From assembly GCF_000337375.1 (NCBI RefSeq), contig NZ_AOJG01000006.1, forward strand, positions 34,435-72,970: a stretch of 38,536 nt of DNA, in the 5' to 3' direction. This DNA comes from Halorubrum lipolyticum DSM 21995. GTDB taxonomy: Archaea > Halobacteriota > Halobacteria > Halobacteriales > Haloferacaceae. The translations under genes were made by a program, and so were the position numbers. Positions 3,205-14,816 of this stretch are shown here, in pieces (positions within the stretch are counted from its first letter, which is position 1; every line of letters begins with the position of its first letter). Below the pieces are notes generated by a model. That model worked only from the letters and a program-made list of their open reading frames with translations. It was not told where the DNA came from and ran no database searches.

Positions 3205-3278
3205 GGGCCAATAGCTCAGTCAGGTTGAGCGCTCGGCTGATAACCGGGAGGTCCACGGTTCAAATCCGTGTTGGCCCA
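3205..3278 (+). tRNA. tRNA-Ile (GAU)
   Basis: A complete 74-nt cloverleaf. The acceptor stem GGGCCAA pairs with TTGGCCC, followed by discriminator A. The D-arm contains AGCTCAGTCAGGTTGAGC. The anticodon stem CTCGG/CCGGG carries loop CTGATAA with anticodon GAT (3239-3241). The T-arm is CACGG-TTCAAAT-CCGTG. CC follows at 3279-3280, but CCA is not encoded in full. There is no intron. The tRNA borders a low-GC stretch, which is a common arrangement at integration sites, but I found no second copy of the tRNA 3' end in the window. Confidence 0.97.
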
Positions 3279-3288
3279 CCTTAATTGA

Positions 3289-3342
3289 ATTCGGGCTTCG
3301 CCCGAATGAATTGGTGGGCTGGGACTCCCCAGCCACCCAATT
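3289..3342. repeat. Two hairpins directly downstream of tRNA-Ile
   Basis: ATTCGGGC (3289-3296)-TTC-GCCCGAAT (3300-3307) is a perfect 8-bp triloop hairpin. It is followed by a longer one: AATTGGTGGGCTGGG (3309-3323) against CCCAGCCACCCAATT (3328-3342), 4-nt loop, with one internal mismatch zone. They may act in tRNA 3' processing or termination, or be remnants of a mobile element. The triloop form matches the cluster at 15-245. Confidence 0.6.
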
Positions 3343-3401
3343 TCGTCGTTCTACACCCCTAGAGGCACCGCTAGCGTGTCTTGTCCGGGCAAGAATTAAG
3401 C

Positions 3402-3416
3402 CGGTAGTCACTACCG
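3402..3416. repeat. Short inverted repeat CGGTAG-TCA-CTACCG
   Basis: A perfect 6-bp inverted repeat with a three-base loop, 15 nt beyond the stop codon of the minus-strand gene at 3431. It may serve as that gene's 3' hairpin. Confidence 0.4.
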
Positions 3417-3430
3417 TCTCCCGATCCGCG

Positions 3431-3733
3431 TTAGCCGAGGTGGTGTCGGCATGATGTTGTTCCGATCTCACGCTGGAGACGTTCCTGCTCACCGGCGTCC
3501 ACCCTGTGTTTGTCGAATTGAACGGCGACAAGCGATCGCGAGGCGGTTTCGTAGTAGATCGCTCGCTCGGTCTCGTGCCCGATCCCGACGAGACCTCGGC
3601 CCTCCTCGAATCTGAATAGATTCTCCGCCATTTTCGCGCTGTGGACACTCGATCGTCGAAGTTGGAGTTCTTCAGCGGGGTTCACGAAGACACCGCGGCG
3701 CCGAATCCTCTCTCCCGAGTCCGTCGTTGCCAT
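3431..3733 (-). CDS. Small protein of unknown function
   Basis: The ORF encodes 100 aa from the ATG at 3733 (MATTDSGERIRRRGVFV). A second ATG at 3754 would add seven residues, and the choice is uncertain. I recognise no family. The protein is soluble and mixed basic/acidic, has no membrane segment, and ends CRHHLG. Its base composition is less GC-rich than the core genes, and it lies between the tRNA-Ile hairpins and an AT-rich spacer, which fits acquired DNA. It could be an accessory gene of a former integrated element. Confidence 0.45.
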   Translation of the reverse strand: MATTDSGERIRRRGVFVNPAEELQLRRSSVHSAKMAENLFRFEEGRGLVGIGHETERAIYYETASRSLVAVQFDKHRVDAGEQERLQREIGTTSCRHHLG

Positions 3734-3754
3734 ATCCGTAGAACTGGTAGTCAA

Positions 3755-3962
3755 CGCAAAGGATGTGAGCCATAGGCACAGAGTGAAACTGGAAGTAAAG
3801 AGGCAGAGGGGCTCTGTTGAAACTCTTAATTGCCAATACCCTCAGATTTCATATATTATCTAGGGGATGTATCTATCACGTCACCTGAGCCTCTTGTAAA
3901 TTGTCTGTCTCAAGACATTTCGTGGTAACATTTTTGTATTAGAATAGACAGAAGTTTAACAG
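3755..3962. other. AT-rich intergenic spacer with IS-end-like sequence
   Basis: About 200 bp of low-GC sequence without a credible gene. GGCTCTGTTGAAACTC at 3810-3825 resembles, from memory, the terminal repeats of some haloarchaeal insertion sequences. No partner repeat or transposase was seen nearby. The right end holds the promoter of the following two-gene unit. Confidence 0.4.
3929..3941 (+). promoter_or_regulatory. Probable TATA box for the 3963/4146 unit
   Basis: The AT-rich run CATTTTTGTATTA is centred about 27 nt before the ATG at 3963. That is the expected distance for a haloarchaeal promoter making a leaderless mRNA. Confidence 0.5.
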
Positions 3963-4142
3963 ATGGCTATTGTGAACGTCGCCTGCCCATACTGTGGTGA
4001 AGAGGCAAACGCAAGCATCCCACGGGATGCAAAGCTCTATGACGTTAAGAAAAAGACATCGAACACCAGGGGCGAAGGGAGCTCTACTACCAGTTGTAAG
4101 AACTGCGGTGCGACATTTGCAACGTCATACACGAGGAACTAA
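3963..4142 (+). CDS. 59-aa zinc-ribbon peptide
   Basis: This short frame encodes MAIVNVACPYCGEEANASIP, continues for 59 aa and ends YTRN-TAA. Two cysteine pairs, CPYC (residues 8-11) and CKNC (45-48), make a compact zinc ribbon of the kind found in small DNA- or RNA-binding and adaptor proteins. The middle is Lys/Thr/Ser-rich and less acidic than typical haloarchaeal proteins. Codon use is AT-richer than in neighbouring core genes. It lies three bases upstream of the next ORF, so they are probably co-transcribed. A TATA-like element 27 nt upstream supports expression. I cannot assign a specific function. Confidence 0.65.
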   Translation: MAIVNVACPYCGEEANASIPRDAKLYDVKKKTSNTRGEGSSTTSCKNCGATFATSYTRN

Positions 4143-4145
4143 CGT

Positions 4146-4673
4146 ATGTATACTCCCGACCTCGATACACTGCCGAAGCACGAACTCCAGCGCCAGGTCG
4201 GGCTGATGCGCGAGCCCGACCTAGATCGAGCGTTGACGCAACCAGAGGCGTACAGCGCTGGCCCTCGTGAGCAACGGGCGATTCAGAAAGAACTCGGATG
4301 GCGTGAGCAGGAACGGATAGCCGCAGCGCAAGCTCACGATGACGCGTTGCGACAAGCTGGATTCGAAACCGGATTCAATGTGGATATCACCCAAGGCATT
4401 CCCGACCCAATTGCCGATCCGCTTCCTGATCTGGTCGTCAATCACGTGGATGATGTCGTGGATGGCAAATTCCAACCGTACGAAATACCTGATCCTCCGG
4501 CTGAAGTGGTCACTCCGTCGACATCCCCTGTTGAGGAGGCTCCGTTCGTGTCATATGACACCACGACTCCGAAGTCCATCAAGGAGGATCGGGAGGGTGT
4601 CTCGGTGAAATTCAGCGTCTCGTTCGATGACGGCTTCGACGACAAGTTCCGTTCCAAATTTAATACAAAATAG
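4146..4673 (+). CDS. Protein of unknown function, partner of the zinc-ribbon peptide
   Basis: This 175-aa protein starts MYTPDLDTLPKHELQRQ three bases after the preceding stop. The N-terminal 75 residues are rich in Gln/Glu/Arg and probably helical (EQRAIQKELGWREQERIAAA). The middle is Pro/Asp/Val-rich and likely extended. The C-terminus is Phe/Lys/Asp-rich (SVSFDDGFDDKFRSKFNTK). There is no signal peptide or membrane helix, and I recognise no family. Its moderate GC content and position in the low-GC stretch after tRNA-Ile suggest acquisition, possibly from a virus or plasmid. That is inference from composition and location. Confidence 0.55.
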   Translation: MYTPDLDTLPKHELQRQVGLMREPDLDRALTQPEAYSAGPREQRAIQKELGWREQERIAAAQAHDDALRQAGFETGFNVDITQGIPDPIADPLPDLVVNHVDDVVDGKFQPYEIPDPPAEVVTPSTSPVEEAPFVSYDTTTPKSIKEDREGVSVKFSVSFDDGFDDKFRSKFNTK

Positions 4674-5220
4674 ATATACAACGGAGCGAGTCGCCGGGGT
4701 GCATCAGGAACCGTCCGGAACACTCGGGGGTCGGCTTATATACTCACACCGAGACCGACCAGAACGTGATACGCGACGGCCGGACCGACGCCTACCGCGT
4801 CACCGATCGCGGCCGCGAGCTGCTGTCACGAGGCCGTGAGAGTCTCGATTCCGCACTCGAAGGGGAGGGCATGGGCGAACGAGTCCGACCGTCGACGTCG
4901 AAGTCCGGCGAATCCGCCACGGTCGGTGCTCGCGTACGCCGACCGCGACCGTGCGCCGCGCCTGCTCGCCGGCCACCGGGCCGTGCCGCAGTCGCTCTCT
5001 GACCCGGTCGATCGCCGGCACGGATCCGACGGCGAGATCGTGGCCCGACTCGCGATCCGCGAGGATGCCCGGACCGTCGACGATCGAGGTCCTGTTCGAG
5101 TTCGCTCGAGAGGACGGAGCGCGGGTCGCTCAGGGCGAGTGTCCCGGGCGTCGGTGTTCGCGGCTTCGCCGGCCCGCGTCGACCCGTCTCGGTTTCTTCA
5201 CCGGCGCCTTTCCCGCGCCC
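4674..5220. other. Decayed region without an intact gene
   Basis: About 550 bp with no intact gene. It begins with an AT-rich segment and a TATA-like TTATATACTC, then GC-rich sequence whose frames give Arg/Pro-rich translations lacking domain structure, apart from the winged-helix fragment listed separately. It probably represents eroded genes between the acquired stretch and the conserved core starting with the thioredoxin-like gene. Confidence 0.5.
4739..4860 (+). pseudogene. Fragment of a winged-helix transcriptional regulator
   Basis: One frame reads HTETDQNVIRDGRTDAYR and continues VTDRGRELLSRGRESLDSALE. This resembles the wing and C-terminal helix of PadR/MarR-like archaeal regulators, where a basic (R)xxYxLTDRGRE motif is typical. 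The recognition-helix part expected upstream is missing, and the frame then runs into low-complexity sequence, ending at 5002. A TATA-like sequence (4736-4743) lies 26 nt before an in-frame GTG at 4766, so a short transcript is conceivable. I favour a truncated relic. Confidence 0.4.
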
Positions 5221-5628
5221 TCAAGCCCGGACGTCCGCGCCCTCGAGCTCCCGCGCGAGGAACTCGGCGATCGACACGTCCGCCTCCTCGACGAACCGAG
5301 CGACCTCCTCGCCCTCGGCGGTCTCGACGACGACCGTCGGGATCAGCTCGATCCCGTACGCCTCGACGCCCTCGCCCTCCTTGCCGTTCGGGCCCTTCGT
5401 CACCGGGAAGTCCTCGATCCGGTCGTCGGGGACGCCGGCCGCGTCGAGCGCCGCGCCGAACGTCGGAAGCTGTCGCTGACAATCGCCACACCAGTCGCCG
5501 CCCCACACCTTGAACCGGTAGTCGGCGGCGGAGAGCGCGTCGAGCACGGCGGGGTCGAACTCGTCGGCGTCGGGGGAGTCCGGGGCGTCGCCGTCCGTGA
5601 AGTCGGGATCGAGCGTTTCGAGCGTCAT
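5221..5628 (-). CDS. Thioredoxin-like protein (WCGDC)
   Basis: This 135-aa cytoplasmic thioredoxin-fold protein has the redox motif WCGDC (Cys47, Cys50), followed by QRQLPTFGAAL. The cis-Pro region GIELIPTVVVE fits the fold. The acidic N-terminal 25 residues and the Gly-Asp pair in the motif are shared by many haloarchaeal thioredoxin-family proteins. It probably acts as a disulfide reductase, but partners are unknown. The ATG at 5628 is chosen because TTGTAAAC at 5652-5659 lies about 27 nt upstream as a TATA-like element. An upstream in-frame ATG would add 32 low-complexity residues. It is divergent from the cysteine synthase gene, 123 bp away, and both relate to thiol metabolism. Confidence 0.85.
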   Translation of the reverse strand: MTLETLDPDFTDGDAPDSPDADEFDPAVLDALSAADYRFKVWGGDWCGDCQRQLPTFGAALDAAGVPDDRIEDFPVTKGPNGKEGEGVEAYGIELIPTVVVETAEGEEVARFVEEADVSIAEFLARELEGADVRA

Positions 5629-5751
5629 ACTCGGCCGTACGCCGGCGACGCTTGTAAACGCCGCGTCGGTGGCAACGGGTCGGCGGGGGCCATCGGACGC
5701 CATTTGCCGGAGTCCGGGGGGCATTTGAGTGGCGCACTCTTCCGTTCTCCC

Positions 5752-6669
5752 ATGGACGACGACGCGTTGGACACGCTCGGCTCGCCGCTCGTGCGAGTCG
5801 ACGCTCCGACCGCGACGACGGTGGCGGCGAAGGTCGAGTCGCGCAATCCGGGCGGCTCAGCGAAGGACCGCCCGGCGCTGTACATGGTCGAGGCCGCCGA
5901 GGAGGCCGGCGACCTGACGCCCGGCGACGGGATCGTCGAGCCCACCTCCGGCAACACGGGGATCGGACTGGCGATGGTCGGCGCGGTGAAGGGGTACGAC
6001 GTGACGCTCGTGATGCCGGACGGCAAGTCGATCGAGCGCCGCCGGCTCATGCGCGCGTACGGCGCCGACGTGGAGCTCGTCGACGGCGACATCTCCGAGG
6101 CCAAGGAGCGCGCCGACGAGCTCGAACGCGAGCGGGGGATGGTCCAGCTCCGCCAGTTCGAGAACCCCGCGAACCCGCGGGCCCACTACGAGACCACCGG
6201 GCCGGAGGTCCTCGAGCAGGTGGGCGACCGCACCGTCGACGCCCTCGTCGCAGGCGTCGGCACAGGCGGCACCCTCACGGGGGTCGGGCGACGGCTCCGC
6301 GAGGCGTTCCCCGAGGTGCGGATCGACGCGGTCGAGCCGAGCGACAACGCCGTCCTCTCCGGCGGCGAGCCCGGGATCGACGAGTTCCAGGGGATGGGGC
6401 CGGGCTTTATCGCGCCCAACCTCGACACGGACCTGATCGACCGGGTCCACACCGTCGACATCGAGAGCGCCGAGGCCGAGTGCCGCCGGCTCGCGCGCGA
6501 GGGGGGGCTGCTCGTCGGCCAGTCCTCCGGCGCCTCGAACCTCGCCGCCAAGGCGGTCGCCGCCGAGCTCCGGGAGTCGGGCGCGTTCGCCGGCGACGAG
6601 CCCCTCGTCGTCACCGTCTTCTGGGACAGCGGCGAGCGCTACCTCACCGCCGGCACCTTCGACGAGTGA
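5752..6669 (+). CDS. cysK: Cysteine synthase (O-acetylserine sulfhydrylase type)
   Basis: This 305-aa PLP enzyme of fold type II would make cysteine from an activated serine and sulfide. PLP-lysine 38 lies in NPGGSAKDR, the substrate loop is PTSGNTG (64-70), the phosphate-binding loop is GVGTGGTLTG, and the C-terminal SGERYL motif matches CysK/CysM. Length is normal for the family. The start MDDDALDTLGSPLVRV is taken because the family begins just before the conserved TPL/SPLV segment. Closely related cystathionine beta-synthases cannot be excluded from sequence, but CBS domains are absent. It is divergent from the thioredoxin-like gene. Confidence 0.92.
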   Translation: MDDDALDTLGSPLVRVDAPTATTVAAKVESRNPGGSAKDRPALYMVEAAEEAGDLTPGDGIVEPTSGNTGIGLAMVGAVKGYDVTLVMPDGKSIERRRLMRAYGADVELVDGDISEAKERADELERERGMVQLRQFENPANPRAHYETTGPEVLEQVGDRTVDALVAGVGTGGTLTGVGRRLREAFPEVRIDAVEPSDNAVLSGGEPGIDEFQGMGPGFIAPNLDTDLIDRVHTVDIESAEAECRRLAREGGLLVGQSSGASNLAAKAVAAELRESGAFAGDEPLVVTVFWDSGERYLTAGTFDE

Positions 6670-6755
6670 GGGGGCCGCCGTGAGCGGGCCGACGCGGCCG
6701 GAGAGCGACCTCCCGCGACCCGGACGTTGATTACCGTCCGCCCCGCAGATCGGTC

Positions 6756-7154
6756 GTGACCACTCATCCCGCATCGCTCTCCGACGGCGCCGACCCCGGG
6801 CCGGGCGCGGACGCCGACGACCGGCGGTTCGACGGGCCGTGGCTGCGCTTCCTCGCGGTCGCCGCCGGCGGCTGGACGCTCCTCTACGCGCTCGACTGGG
6901 CCCTGTTGACGGCCGGCACCCCTATCGGCGCCGCCGTGGGGTTCGCGCACGGCTACCTCCTCGCGCCGCTCGCGACCGCGGCGGTCCTCCTCGACGCGCT
7001 CTCGCTCGCCGAGCGGGGCGTCGCCGACTTCGGCCTTTTCAAATGGCTGTACGCGCTCGTCGCGCTGGTCGCGCCGCCGGTCGCGGTCGTCTACTACGCG
7101 CACCGCGAGTGGCTGAAACCGGGCGATCCGGCCCTGCTCGGGGGACCGAGATGA
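6756..7154 (+). CDS. Small haloarchaeal membrane protein
   Basis: The ORF encodes 132 aa from GTG. After a 28-residue acidic N-terminus come about three hydrophobic segments (roughly 29-50, 58-76 and 90-110). The C-terminus is short and basic/polar (HREWLKPGDPALLGGPR). I do not recognise a named family and the function is unknown. Its stop codon overlaps the start of the MOSC gene (ATGA at 7151-7154), so the two are translationally coupled and probably act in related processes. Confidence 0.65.
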   Translation: MTTHPASLSDGADPGPGADADDRRFDGPWLRFLAVAAGGWTLLYALDWALLTAGTPIGAAVGFAHGYLLAPLATAAVLLDALSLAERGVADFGLFKWLYALVALVAPPVAVVYYAHREWLKPGDPALLGGPR

Positions 7155-7717
7155 CGGGGGAGTCCGCCGGCGGTTCCGTGGCGTCCCTCGTCACCGCCCC
7201 CGAGAGCGGCGCTCCGCCCGAGCCGCGTGACGCGGTCGAGATCCGTCCGGACGGGGTCGCGGGCGACCGCTACCGGCTCGGCGAGGGGACCTTCCAGCTC
7301 GACGCCTGCGCGGTCACGCTCGTCGCCGCGGAGGCGCTCGCCGCGGTGCGCGAGGAGACCGGGATCGACGTCTCCGACGGTCGCCACCGGCGGAACGTCG
7401 TCGTCGACGGGTTCGGCGACGGGATGGACGACCTGCTGGACGCGACCGTCGCGGTCGGCGACGCGCGCCTCCGACCGACTCGCCGGCGACCGCCCTGCGC
7501 GCACGTGGAGGCGCTGGCGGGCGAGGAGGGACTGGCCGGGGCGCTGACAGACCGCGGCGGGCTCTGCTGTGACGTGATCGAGCCGGGCCGCGTCGCCGTC
7601 GGCGACCCCGTCAGCGTCGCGGAGCCGGATCCCGAGACCGCGGGCGCCGCGATCGCGGACCGATTGCGAGCGCGCGCATCCGACGGCCCCGACCGCGCCG
7701 ATTCGCACGGGGAGTGA
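7151..7717 (+). CDS. MOSC domain-containing protein
   Basis: This 188-aa stand-alone MOSC domain belongs to the family of molybdenum-cofactor sulfurase C-terminal and YiiM-like proteins, which handle Moco-bound or delivered sulfur. Supporting motifs are GVAGDRYRLGEG, RHRRNVVVDG, the RRPPCAHVEAL segment and GLCCDVIEPGRVAVGD near the C-terminus. The Cys there corresponds to the conserved MOSC cysteine. It is cytoplasmic. A link to molybdoenzyme biology is notable because a large molybdenum nitrate reductase is encoded 20 kb away, but co-function is inference. It overlaps the preceding membrane-protein gene by four bases. Confidence 0.85.
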   Translation: MTGESAGGSVASLVTAPESGAPPEPRDAVEIRPDGVAGDRYRLGEGTFQLDACAVTLVAAEALAAVREETGIDVSDGRHRRNVVVDGFGDGMDDLLDATVAVGDARLRPTRRRPPCAHVEALAGEEGLAGALTDRGGLCCDVIEPGRVAVGDPVSVAEPDPETAGAAIADRLRARASDGPDRADSHGE

Positions 7718-7791
7718 CCCCCGGCCGCGGCGTCGTCCGGAACCGAAAGCGTTGACCGCGGACCGGACCGACGACTCGCCGTGACCGTCGG

Positions 7792-8964
7792 ATGAGCTGG
7801 CGGTACCGCCACACGGTGCTGTCGCTGTGTATGCTCGCGTTCCTCGTCACCTACTTCGCCAGACTGGCGATCAGCCCCGTCGTCCCGCTGATCGTCGAGG
7901 ACTTCGCGGTGTCGAACACCGCCATCGGTGTCGCGCTCTCCGGGATGTGGCTGGCGTACGGCGCCGCCCAGTTCCCCAGCGGCGTGCTCGCGGACCGGTA
8001 CGGGGAGCGGCGCGTCATCCTCGTCGCCGTCGGGGGGACGACGGCGATGAGCGTCGTGCTCGCGCTCGCGCCCGTCTTCCCCGCGTTCGTGCTGGCGGCG
8101 GTGCTGTTGGGGCTCGTCGCCGGGCTCCACTACGCCGTGGCGACGACGCTGCTCTCCCGGACCTTCGACGACATCGGGACGGCGTTCGGGCTCCACTCCG
8201 TGGGCGGGCCGCTCGCCGGGCTCGCGGCGCCCGTCGCCGCCGCGTGGGTCGGCGTCCGGCTCGGCTGGCGACCCGCGGTCGCGCTGGCCGCGCTGGTCGG
8301 CGCGCCGGTGTTCCTGCTGTTCGCGTGGCGCGTCCGCCCGACCGAACCCCGGCGCCCCGATCAGCCGATGCGGGAGCGGTTCGCGCTCGCGCCCCTGGTC
8401 GAACTCCTCTCGCGCCCGAGCGTCCTCCTCCCCCTGTTCGTCGCGATGGTCGGCACGTACGTCGTGCAGGGCGTGATGTCGTTTCTCCCGACGTTCCTCG
8501 TCGATTTCCGCGGGTACTCGCCGTCGGGCGCCGCCGGCGTCTTCTCCGCGTTCTTCGTCGTCCGCGCCGTCGCGCAGGTGGGGCTCGGTCGGTTCTCCGA
8601 CAGCGTGAGCCGCGACGCCGCCATCGGCGGGGCGATGCTCGCGGGCACGGTCGGCATCGCCGCGTTCGTCGTCGGCCCCGGAGTCGCCGGCGTCGCCGTC
8701 GCGGTGCTTTTGGCCGGCACCGGCGCGAGCTTCTTCTCGGCGATCGACCCGCGGTTCATGGACGCGCTCGGCGACGCGGAGCGGGGCGCCGGGTTCGGGC
8801 TCGTTCGCACGGTGTATACCGTGATCGGCTCCGCGGGCTCGTTCGGCGTCGGGCTCGCCGCCGACCTGTTCGGCTGGGGGATTTCCTTCGCGATCCTGGC
8901 GGCCCTGTTCGGGGTCACGTTCGCCGTGCTCGTCGCGAACTGGGCGCTCGGAACGGGGTACTGA
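7792..8964 (+). CDS. MFS transporter, paralogue of the one at 35466
   Basis: This 390-aa major facilitator has about 12 transmembrane segments. The loop 2-3 signature is visible as GVLADRYGERRVIL, and a matching motif RFSDSVSRDAA occurs in the second half. A soluble loop RVRPTEPRRPDQPMRERF separates the halves. The substrate is unknown. It is strikingly similar along its whole length to the transporter at 35466-36650 (shared (S/N)WRY(R/K)HT start, SGMWLAY, FDDIG, WRVRPTEP and ERGAGFGLVRT), so the two arose by duplication. The start follows the 74-nt gap after the MOSC gene. Confidence 0.85.
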   Translation: MSWRYRHTVLSLCMLAFLVTYFARLAISPVVPLIVEDFAVSNTAIGVALSGMWLAYGAAQFPSGVLADRYGERRVILVAVGGTTAMSVVLALAPVFPAFVLAAVLLGLVAGLHYAVATTLLSRTFDDIGTAFGLHSVGGPLAGLAAPVAAAWVGVRLGWRPAVALAALVGAPVFLLFAWRVRPTEPRRPDQPMRERFALAPLVELLSRPSVLLPLFVAMVGTYVVQGVMSFLPTFLVDFRGYSPSGAAGVFSAFFVVRAVAQVGLGRFSDSVSRDAAIGGAMLAGTVGIAAFVVGPGVAGVAVAVLLAGTGASFFSAIDPRFMDALGDAERGAGFGLVRTVYTVIGSAGSFGVGLAADLFGWGISFAILAALFGVTFAVLVANWALGTGY

Positions 8965-12221: not shown

Positions 12222-14816
12222 ATGACGGAACGGGACGAACGCCGGTCGGACGCGCTCGCGGCGGACGGGCGGTCCGAGCCGGCGCGGGTGCTCCTCGTCG
12301 CCGACCGGCCGGACGTCGGAGACCGCGCGGCCGCGGCCATCGAAAACCGCGCCGACCGGATCGACGTGACGCTGGCCGCCGACGCCGCCGAGGGGCTTGA
12401 CCTCGTCGACGCCGGCGAGGTCGACTGCGTCGTCAGCGGCTACGACCTCCCCGAGATGGACGGCGTCGAGTTCCTCCGCGCCGTCCGCGACCGCGACCGC
12501 GACCTCCCCTTCCTGCTGTTCACGGCCCGCGGATCGGAGGCGATCGCGAGCGAGGCGGTCGCCGCGGGTGTCGACGAGTACCTCCCGGTGGGCGACGGCG
12601 GTGAGACCGACTCCGCCGGTACCGACGACCCCTACGCGACGCTCGCGTCCCGCGTCGACCGCGCCGTGTCTCGGTCGCACACCGAGCGCCGGGTGACCGA
12701 ACACCTCGATCGGATGACGGACGCGTTCTGCGCCCTCGACGACTCCTGGCGGCTCACGTACCTCAACGAGCGGGCGGCGACGCTGCTCGACCGCGACGTC
12801 GGGGACCTGCTCGGCGAGCGGATCTGGGACCGGTTCGAGACGCTTCGCGGGACCGAGATCGAGGAGCGGTTCCGCGAGGCGATGGCGACCGGGGAGCCGA
12901 CCGCCTTCGAGTTCCGCTTCGACGCCCCCGACCTCGAACTCGCGATCGACGCCTATCCCTCCGACACCGGGCTGTCGGTGTACTTCCGCGACGTGACCGA
13001 GCAGCGCGAGCGCGAGCGCGAGCTCCGCGAGCTCTCAGAGCGGTTCCGGCTCGCGGTCGAGGGTGCCGACGTCGGGGTCTGGGACTGGGACCTCACGACC
13101 GACGAGGTGCGGTTCGACGAGCGGTGGGCCGGCATGTTGGGGTACGACCAGTCCGAGATCGCCTTCGAGCTCTCGGAGTGGGAGGAGCGCGTTCACCCCG
13201 ACGACCTCGGCGAGGTGTGGGCGGCGCTGGAGGCGCACTTCGCCGGCGAGACGGAGTACTACCAGTACGACCACCGGATGGAGACGAAGGGGGGCGACTG
13301 GAAGTGGATCCGCGACCGCGGGCGCGTCGTCGAGCGCGACGAGGACGGAGCGCCGGTCCGCGCCGTCGGGATCCACATCGACGTGACCGAGGAGAAGGAG
13401 CGCGAACGCGATTTGGAGCGGTACCGACGGCTCGTCGACGAGCTTCCCAACTCCGTGGCCCTGTACGACGCCGAGGGGCGGTTCTCGGTCGTCAACGACC
13501 GGATCGCAGAGGTGTACGACGCGAGCCGCGAGGAGCTCGTCGGTCGGCGGAGCCCCCTGTTACGGCGGCTCCGGGAGACCCGCGAGGGCGACCCGTTCGC
13601 GGCGCTGGTCGCGGGCGACCGCGAGACGCTGTCGGGGACCGTCGAGCTCGACATCCCCGAGCGGTCCGACGCGATCATCGACTTTTCGCTGCGGCGGCTC
13701 GTCATCGACGGCGAGTTCGACGGCGTGCTCGGTATCACCCGCGACGTGACCGAGGAGCGCCGGCGCCAGCGGGAGCTCGAACGCACCTCGGCCCGGCTGG
13801 AGGCCCTCTACGAGGACTCGCCGGACATGATCGATATCCACGACGAGGCGGGCGAGATCGTGGACGCGAACCCGGTGATGGCGGCCGAGCTCGGCTACGA
13901 CCGCGAGGAGCTCGTGGGGATGGACGTGTGGGAGATCGACGCGGAGCTGGGCCCGACGGAGGGGACCGACCTCTGGCAGGGCATCGAGATGGGCGAGACG
14001 CGTCGGATAGAGACGGCCTTCCGACGGGCCGACGGCACGACGCTGCCGGTCGAGGTACAGGTCCGGCGGGTCGACGTGCAGGGCGAAGACCGGTTCCTCG
14101 CCACCAGCCGCGACATCTCGGAGCGGAAGGCGTACGAGCGCCGGATCGAACGCGAGAACGAGCGGCTCGACGAGTTCGCCTCGATCGTCTCGCACGACCT
14201 CCGGAACCCGCTCAACGTGCTCTCCGGCTACCTCCGTCTCGCCCGGGAGACGGGAGAGGAGTCGTACTTCGAGCGCTGTGAGTCCGCGCTCGACGAGATG
14301 GAGCGGCTGATCGACGACGTGCTCACCCTCGCCCGGCAGGGCGACGCCGTGGGGTCGGTCGACCCCGTCCCGCTCGGCGAGCTGGCGACCCGCCACGCGA
14401 ACGACGTGTTCGGCTCGATCGAACGGGACGGCGGAACCGACGGGGGAGGCTCCGGAGACGGACCGGGCGATTCGGCGGCGGTCGTCGTCGAGACCGAGGG
14501 CGACGTGCTGGCGGACCCCGGCCGGCTCAAGCGCCTGCTTCAGAACCTCTTCCGGAACGCGGCCGAACACGGCGGGGACCGCGTCGTCGTCGGCGACCTC
14601 CCCGAGGGGTTCTACGTCGAGGACGACGGGCCGGGGATCCCCGAGGACCGGCGCGACGAGGTGTTCGAGAGCGGCCGCACGACCTCCGAGTCGGGGACCG
14701 GCTTCGGGCTCGCCATCGTCGAGCGCATCGCGGAGGCCCACGGCTGGGAGGTGACGCTGACGGAGGGGGAGGAGGGCGGCGCTCGCTTCGAGTTCACGGG
14801 CGTCGAACGGTGCTGA
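12222..14816 (+). CDS. Multi-PAS sensor histidine kinase with degenerate receiver
   Basis: This 864-aa soluble kinase has a receiver-like domain at 22-125, then four PAS-type modules at about 163-265, 270-392, 400-512 and 523-635, each closing with a DVTE/DISE-type motif. The catalytic core follows: H-box SHDLRNPL with phospho-His658, N-box LFRNAAEHGG (Asn779), G1 DDGPGIP (801-807) and G2 GTGFGLAIV. The receiver lacks the key acidic residue (VAD where VDD is usual), the phospho-acceptor Asp (VVSGYDLPEMDG has Gly73) and the Lys switch. It therefore probably does not accept phosphate. There are no membrane helices, so it senses a cytoplasmic signal. No response regulator is adjacent. Confidence 0.9.
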   Translation: MTERDERRSDALAADGRSEPARVLLVADRPDVGDRAAAAIENRADRIDVTLAADAAEGLDLVDAGEVDCVVSGYDLPEMDGVEFLRAVRDRDRDLPFLLFTARGSEAIASEAVAAGVDEYLPVGDGGETDSAGTDDPYATLASRVDRAVSRSHTERRVTEHLDRMTDAFCALDDSWRLTYLNERAATLLDRDVGDLLGERIWDRFETLRGTEIEERFREAMATGEPTAFEFRFDAPDLELAIDAYPSDTGLSVYFRDVTEQRERERELRELSERFRLAVEGADVGVWDWDLTTDEVRFDERWAGMLGYDQSEIAFELSEWEERVHPDDLGEVWAALEAHFAGETEYYQYDHRMETKGGDWKWIRDRGRVVERDEDGAPVRAVGIHIDVTEEKERERDLERYRRLVDELPNSVALYDAEGRFSVVNDRIAEVYDASREELVGRRSPLLRRLRETREGDPFAALVAGDRETLSGTVELDIPERSDAIIDFSLRRLVIDGEFDGVLGITRDVTEERRRQRELERTSARLEALYEDSPDMIDIHDEAGEIVDANPVMAAELGYDREELVGMDVWEIDAELGPTEGTDLWQGIEMGETRRIETAFRRADGTTLPVEVQVRRVDVQGEDRFLATSRDISERKAYERRIERENERLDEFASIVSHDLRNPLNVLSGYLRLARETGEESYFERCESALDEMERLIDDVLTLARQGDAVGSVDPVPLGELATRHANDVFGSIERDGGTDGGGSGDGPGDSAAVVVETEGDVLADPGRLKRLLQNLFRNAAEHGGDRVVVGDLPEGFYVEDDGPGIPEDRRDEVFESGRTTSESGTGFGLAIVERIAEAHGWEVTLTEGEEGGARFEFTGVERC

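Follow-up and report, generated by a model that had tools for sequence, protein, structure and literature searches.

Analysis of the DNA behind tRNA-Ile(GAT) in Halorubrum lipolyticum DSM 21995 shows that it carries a conserved two-gene unit that is shared with an unrelated replicon. The two genes encode a zinc ribbon of 59 aa (ZnR) and an acidic protein of 175 aa (p175), and for the stretch around them the best reading is that of a replicon, integrated at this tRNA, of which a decayed left end is left. The stretch was analysed within a window of 38,536 nucleotides, and its features are collected in the table. The GC content of 3473–4780 is 0.533 against a window mean of 0.704 (SD 0.039; 1300-base steps, segment included), and the poorest 1300-base stretch sampled outside it still has a GC content of 0.659. 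An earlier note on this DNA had described such a drop directly behind the tRNA, a 59-aa zinc ribbon and a 175-aa protein three bases apart. The drop is real, and so are the lengths and the spacing: both genes are intact, with three bases between the ZnR stop and the p175 ATG. The start that the note gave to the stretch, 3279, falls inside the last bases of the tRNA, which ends at 3280.

Table. Features of the stretch behind tRNA-Ile(GAT), in window coordinates.
Feature	Position	Strand	Basis
tRNA-Ile(GAT)	3205..3280	+	ARAGORN; Rfam RF00005; integration target in relatives, where further copies of the 3′ end lie next to integrase homologues
Conserved non-coding block after tRNA-Ile	3281..3471	+	blastn against 47 relatives; alignment
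Two-hairpin structured element	3289..3344 (stem 1, 3289–3307; stem 2, 3308–3344)	+	folds; stem 1 covariation
ORF107, 107 aa, probable gene fragment	3431..3754	-	blastn to one relative; no family
Probable solo IS end (GGCTCTGTTGAAA...)	3810..3828	.	pattern copies in own genome; transposase between such ends
Presumed promoter region, weak TATA-like box	3915..3962	+	homologous in pHTIA (blastn)
ZnR, small basic zinc ribbon of 59 aa with cysteines C8, C11, C45 and C48	3963..4142	+	PF23454; adjoins p175 in three genomes
p175, 175-aa acidic protein with helical head, disordered tail and conserved end	4146..4673	+	homologues; predicted model
Orc1/Cdc6 gene, 5′ end and upstream region, cut off	4702..4779	+	homology in 14 of 52 genus genomes

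Searches of 392 Halobacteriales genomes located p175 in three, from three families: the window's own, that of Halorhabdus tiamatea, where the gene lies on plasmid pHTIA (74% identity), and that of a third genome, G006, where it lies on a 193-kb contig, C9 (55%), with its own Orc1/Cdc6 gene 59 kb from the pair. A class-wide profile search returned 36 of 391 genomes at E 0.05, of which these three were taken as real and the others, at 14–20 bits, as noise. In all three genomes a ZnR gene of 59 codons precedes p175, with spacings of 3, 3 and 6 bases; the annotation of pHTIA lists no gene for ZnR, its gene table being known to be incomplete. Since both frames and their order are kept in two other replicons, ZnR–p175 is a real conserved two-gene unit and not a pair of chance frames. 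DNA homology between the window and pHTIA is confined to 3915–4673 (blastn, 72%), from 48 bases before the ZnR ATG to the p175 stop, so that the upstream region and the two genes would have moved, or survived, as one piece.

Comparison of the window and pHTIA copies by the Nei–Gojobori method gave pN/pS values of 0.109/0.769 for ZnR and 0.152/0.769 for p175, with synonymous differences saturated (pS 0.77). These values show strong constraint on both coding sequences between lineages, and say nothing of the present activity of the window copy. They weigh on the possibility that the pair is an inert relic, intact just because it arrived recently and without a role in its host, an explanation that would suit the broken surroundings (no integrase, a cut Orc1/Cdc6 gene, a probable solo IS end) and the lack of p175 in all 31 other genomes of the genus in the order sample. 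With both frames intact, the upstream region kept and the constraint between lineages strong, we regard it as unlikely.

The mobile reading of the pair is well supported, as the earlier note had proposed in calling the stretch a remnant or minimal mobile unit: the pair is sporadic, it sits on a Halorhabdus plasmid, an Orc1/Cdc6 piece adjoins it, and its tRNA locus is a hotspot in relatives. What would speak against it, according to the note, is that every relative has these genes here, with vertical phylogeny; downstream of tRNA-Ile, 2.2 to 7.4 kb in each of 47 genus relatives contain neither ZnR nor p175. It had further suggested haloviruses and plasmids as places to look, and the pair is on a plasmid, pHTIA. 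Scans of IMG/VR with p175, ZnR and profile A1 and of 50,697 phage records returned no relative and the BFVD fold search of p175 gave no match at E below 0.001, for which reasons a viral origin was dropped. Scans of GTDB contigs found no relative; they may omit records belonging to the window's genome or close to it, and they do miss relatives, the Halorhabdus copy among them. A literature search by accession and locus tag of the pHTIA p175 gave no match, which says little about the literature overall.

Upstream of the pair, the best TATA-like 8-mers in the window agree with the consensus at six of eight positions and start 24–30 bases 5′ of the ZnR ATG; in the pHTIA copy the best starts 27 bases 5′ of the ATG. 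Transcription of ZnR–p175 from a TATA box, which the note had taken as given, is plausible on this basis but weak.

ZnR passes the Pfam family Zn_ribbon_Brz (PF23454) with 34.4 bits (cut-off 27.9; 32.5 in the genome search), and its G006 homologue falls just under the cut-off at 26.8. The HMM searches proposed earlier for both proteins thus yield a family for ZnR and none for p175. Against the Brz equivalog NF041795, ZnR scores 24.8 bits with a cut-off of 100, which rules it out as a Brz ortholog and makes regulation by analogy with Brz a weak argument. The three copies of ZnR (window, pHTIA and G006) share the four cysteines C8, C11, C45 and C48, and the AlphaFold model of ZnR is all-beta, with a mean pLDDT of 78. 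A fold search returned nothing significant, Cren7 coming first at E 1.6. The net charge is +3 in the window copy and +4 in that of pHTIA.

ZnR-like genes recur in pairs with different partners, as judged from ORF calls without a statistical test. A co-oriented partner less than 20 bases away was considered real at 7 of 18 places: p175 at three of these, a 107-aa protein at L018, membrane proteins at L015 and L023, and an 87-aa protein at L021. Another ORF of 87 aa, 19 bases behind the ZnR-like gene of L016, was judged a chance frame. At L018 (1498–1984, in G110), the ZnR gene is followed after one base by the gene for the 107-aa protein, which looks acidic and has no Pfam match; a comparison of this partner with p175 found no kinship (hhalign prob 0.1). 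The ZnR genes of L015 and L023, from two different families, are closely trailed by genes for membrane proteins of about 220–250 aa that look alike.

p175 has a net charge of –14 to –19 and matches nothing in Pfam, PHROGs or PADLOC (none at E 1), and a PDB sequence search with its profile gave 0 matches. A SymE match (E 0.066; 13.1 bits against an NCBIfam cut-off of 132) was rejected as chance-level. In the predicted model, helices span residues 11–73 with pLDDT mostly above 80 and confidence is limited to about residues 1–73, so p175 is presumably disordered beyond about residue 73. Its last 23 residues are well conserved, 17 of them being invariant in the three sequences. Fold searches, BFVD included, returned nothing at E below 0.001. 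Foldseek likened the helical head to Skp1-F-box structures (prob 0.44 and 0.38; E 2.7 and 3.5), and F-box names came up in the BFVD search as well; the likeness is not significant and was set aside, archaea not being known to have Skp1 machinery.

Examination of the same locus across the genus marks tRNA-Ile as a hotspot of integration in relatives. DNA reaching from the gene upstream as far as the tRNA was matched in 52 of 52 genus genomes (in G337 and G403 by short weak matches only), and the loci of 47 of the 51 relatives were fetched, with G308, G337, G403 and G407 left out. Each of nine extra tRNA 3′ ends examined (15–33 exact bases, seven genomes) adjoins a tyrosine-integrase homologue, about 60 to 130 bases off; in G397 and G404 such copies sit on contigs that lack the tRNA. 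A single integrase was scanned and matched PF00589 and PF02899; motif copies on contig C5 of G334 and contig C84 of G404 were left out of the survey. A tiny element of 2.8 kb in G052 consists of an integrase and ORFs of 173 and 176 aa. L065, L074 and L102 hold integrase pieces only; matches of the integrase query at the tRNA in L060, L073, L087 and L100 were dropped because the query ORF is too long and spans an att copy, and a weak match of 41 residues in L071 was left out. In G408 (L069), tRNA 3′ ends bound a minimal element of 3.0 kb with a tyrosine integrase and one 506-aa ORF, whose first 367 residues, those scanned, have no Pfam match.

In the window tRNA-Ile is followed by a thioredoxin gene. 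Six genomes, the window among them, have the two 1.27 to 4.27 kb apart; the distance is about 31 kb in G401 and about 49 kb in G052. For 41 of the 47 relatives, the DNA fetched from behind the tRNA did not include the thioredoxin gene, and some of these loci lack synteny altogether; gene order must differ there or the insert be larger, and the variable gap is therefore shown for few genomes. The window itself gave no integrase match, no match of 17–35 bases to the tRNA end in 3283–8000 (up to 30% mismatch) and no second 15-base copy of that end anywhere within it, so that we infer an integrase-driven insertion at this tRNA-Ile from the relatives.

Directly behind the tRNA, homology to the conserved block ends at 3465–3472 in 12 of the 47 relatives compared by blastn; relatives of the window's block type run on past about 3471, where the window copy stops. 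The block holds a two-hairpin element. Among nine hand-chosen sequences of one type, stem 1 varies in sequence with its pairing kept (99.5% of cells pair); its covariation score and paired cells exceed those of 500 out of 500 shuffles, and four of its pairs are changed on both sides, a number reached by 101 of the 500. Single-sequence folds of two other types, L060 and L071, are somewhat different. The CTCCCCAGCCACC motif of the element is present in 49 of 52 genus genomes and, with one mismatch allowed and one control hit, in 101 of 392 genomes of the order. An Rfam scan placed the tRNA alone above threshold, leaving the element without an Rfam family. As it recurs behind the tRNA 3′-end copies of integrated elements, its nature may be that of an RNA without a name so far or of an accessory site of att. 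Behind the hairpins, at 3346–3471 and at the same place in L058–L104, lies a further block that comes in several types and is patchy across species, as if alleles were swapped along with elements. The post-tRNA motif also occurs three times on contig C1 of G263, at 261527, 297997 and 334466; with spacings of 36,470 and 36,469 bases, these are possibly copies of one integrated element of 36.5 kb arranged in tandem.

Between this block and the pair lie two pieces that the earlier note had called an orphan gene and IS-like sequence. The orphan gene is doubtful: ORF107 has no family match and, of the 47 loci from relatives, resembles L075 alone, with 55% identity across 44 residues and another 11 residues that belong to the post-tRNA block. 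It is better read as a fragment, a piece of which (3623–3718) has a homologue in L075 and is shared with G358 (blastn, 5e-11). For the IS-like sequence the basis is a brief match, 3810–3828, which fits a 19-base IS-end pattern exactly. Allowing one mismatch, the pattern recurs 11 times elsewhere in the genome, against no occurrence of the reversed control, and a DDE transposase (PF01609) on contig C39 has ends of this kind on both sides; just 13 bases are identical between the C39 end and 3810–3828. The opposite end was not found in 3281–6000. As this probable IS end stands between the tRNA block and the pair, the pair could stem from a separate recombination.

On the far side of the pair, 28 bases behind p175, the 78 bases of 4702–4779 match DNA in 14 of 52 genus genomes, the window's own included. 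The search gave 16 matches, of which L153 is the query and the partial L164–L166 were left out. All 12 others run on into a frame that resembles Orc1. What the window retains would thus be the beginning of an Orc1/Cdc6 gene, its first codons and the DNA before them, with a cut at about 4780. The Orc1-like frame is broken in at least L002, L155 and L162 and partly masked in L160 and L167, and two full-length frames scanned pass the orc1/cdc6 family TIGR02928 narrowly (181.6 and 183.2 bits; cut-off 181.3). Because the pair and the Orc1/Cdc6 fragment are adjacent, they may have belonged to one element. Six of the 13 places with an Orc1 5′ end share their contig with tRNA-Ile and follow it at 1.4 to 22 kb (the window, L154, L156, L160, L162 and L163), and in L154 and L163 the 5′ end stands between two att copies. 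The second Orc1 5′ end of the window's own genome (G000, contig C8, about 13448–13523; L002 and L187), whose frame is broken, has an ORF upstream that looks HicB-like by eye.

The cargo just upstream of the Orc1 copies varies. It is HicA with a DUF7387 protein in L160 (by Pfam) and L161 (by similarity), a C5 DNA methylase (PF00145) in L154, a DUF429 gene in L156 and unknowns in other copies; the gene in L167 is one that we take to be a MacB-like permease. L157 offers only 115 bases upstream of its Orc1 copy, and L158 has no ORF in 446 bases. In G358, the ORF107 piece and the Orc1 5′ end (9e-21) bracket HicA (PF07927) and DUF7387 where the window has ZnR–p175. The two gene pairs are oppositely oriented, which makes this a positional hint only.

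That shared slot is one of several observations that would fit a toxin–antitoxin or addiction unit, in which ZnR, as the DNA-binding product of the first gene, would be the antitoxin or autoregulator, p175 the toxin, and the element would be stabilised by them. The genes are two and tightly spaced, the first is small and basic, and they occur on a plasmid and beside a replicon fragment; on the other two replicons, moreover, a ribbon-helix-helix gene and a ParE-like gene (21.0 bits, where the cut-off is 23) are found about 2.4 kb upstream of ZnR–p175, and a MazE and PIN pair about 9 kb upstream. Yet no toxin–antitoxin family was recognised in ZnR or p175, p175 matched no toxin family, PADLOC model or fold, and its acidity and long predicted disordered part are unusual for a toxin. 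The opposite direction of HicA/DUF7387 and the several tenants upstream of Orc1 that are not toxin–antitoxin genes also weigh against such a unit, and we consider it rather improbable.

The methylase in the same position bears on another alternative, that ZnR–p175 is a viral or plasmid accessory pair for takeover, defence or counter-defence, with p175 binding a host or viral protein and ZnR setting the timing. The sporadic distribution, the low GC and the replicon fragment next door are consistent with it, as are the 506-aa protein of no Pfam family beside the integrase in G408 and a weak similarity of ZnR to the Lar restriction-alleviation model TIGR03655 (20.8 bits). The Lar score is, however, below the cut-off of 39.6 and of a kind common to many zinc ribbons; against PADLOC, ZnR reached no more than 12.5 and 9.6 bits, short of a match, and p175 matched nothing, and the virus and phage collections yielded no relatives. 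We therefore see little chance, though some, that the pair serves in this way. A defence-type role as the earlier note had it is possible but not supported, with p175 matching no PADLOC, Pfam or PHROG entry and the hints being positional. More speculative, and to our mind quite improbable, is the idea that ZnR–p175 represents a cassette of a new kind, selfish or protective, carried by integrated replicons of haloarchaea, composed of a zinc-ribbon controller and a disordered, acidic, non-enzymatic effector and filling the Orc1/Cdc6-side slot that HicA or a DNA methylase holds in relatives.

The explanation that we prefer, of a decayed integrated replicon that keeps a regulator-plus-adaptor operon, is offered tentatively, at somewhat less than an even chance for the whole of it. 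Under this explanation, the bases from 3281 to about 4780 would be the decayed left part of a replicon integrated at tRNA-Ile, which would have kept a two-gene operon as cargo together with the first Orc1/Cdc6 bases, while its integrase and the att end on the right would have disappeared. A promoter immediately before the two genes would drive their co-transcription, and the mRNA would probably be leaderless. Being a zinc ribbon of the Brz kind, small and basic, ZnR is most likely a nucleic-acid binder and a regulator of its own operon or of a target promoter. p175 would most likely be a non-enzymatic adaptor working with ZnR, its helical head making contacts and its acidic, presumably disordered tail with the conserved end recruiting or neutralising something; ZnR is one candidate target of the tail because of its opposite charge. 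This regulator-plus-adaptor model for the two proteins, which is built on analogy and would have the pair benefit its element, we put forward as possible, some way short of probable.

Haloarchaea have many small zinc-ribbon proteins of unassigned role, and for one of these the pair supplies a concrete partner open to testing; p175 adds a protein family without a relative in the libraries searched. The bracket formed by the ORF fragment, the cargo and the Orc1 5′ end offers a way to read the tRNA-Ile hotspot, since comparing it across relatives would reveal which cargo modules swap.

Several known systems resemble parts of this arrangement. Like the haloarchaeal C(P)XCG micro-proteins, ZnR has fewer than 70 residues and two CxxC knuckles; that set comes from Haloferax volcanii, several of its members are reported not to bind zinc (PMC11241148), and it is likened to ZnR by description. 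Of the HicAB type of toxin–antitoxin cassette, HicA with DUF7387 occupies the corresponding bracket in G358, but the two have no family in common with ZnR or p175 and lie in the opposite orientation. Haloarchaeal elements that classical tyrosine integrases, such as that of SNJ2 (PMC8371274), insert at tRNA genes share with the relatives' loci the use of a tRNA 3′ end as att, an integrase beside att and variable cargo. Unlike them, the copy in the window lacks both an integrase and a second att; the relatives' integrase that was scanned was placed at the level of PF00589. A parallel to the gene arrangement is Brz/Brb of Halobacterium salinarum. In Halobacterium, brz lies directly upstream of bop and Brz is needed for high bop mRNA (PMC2253796), Brb is co-transcribed with brz and cooperates with Brz (PMC3184054), and the authors of the Brz report suggest a similar control of neighbouring genes by further small zinc-finger proteins as a possibility (PMC2253796). 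As in that system, a small CPxCG zinc ribbon is encoded upstream of a co-oriented partner; in contrast, p175 is an acidic protein of 175 aa rather than an opsin or a small basic protein, and ZnR–p175 adjoins a replicon fragment.
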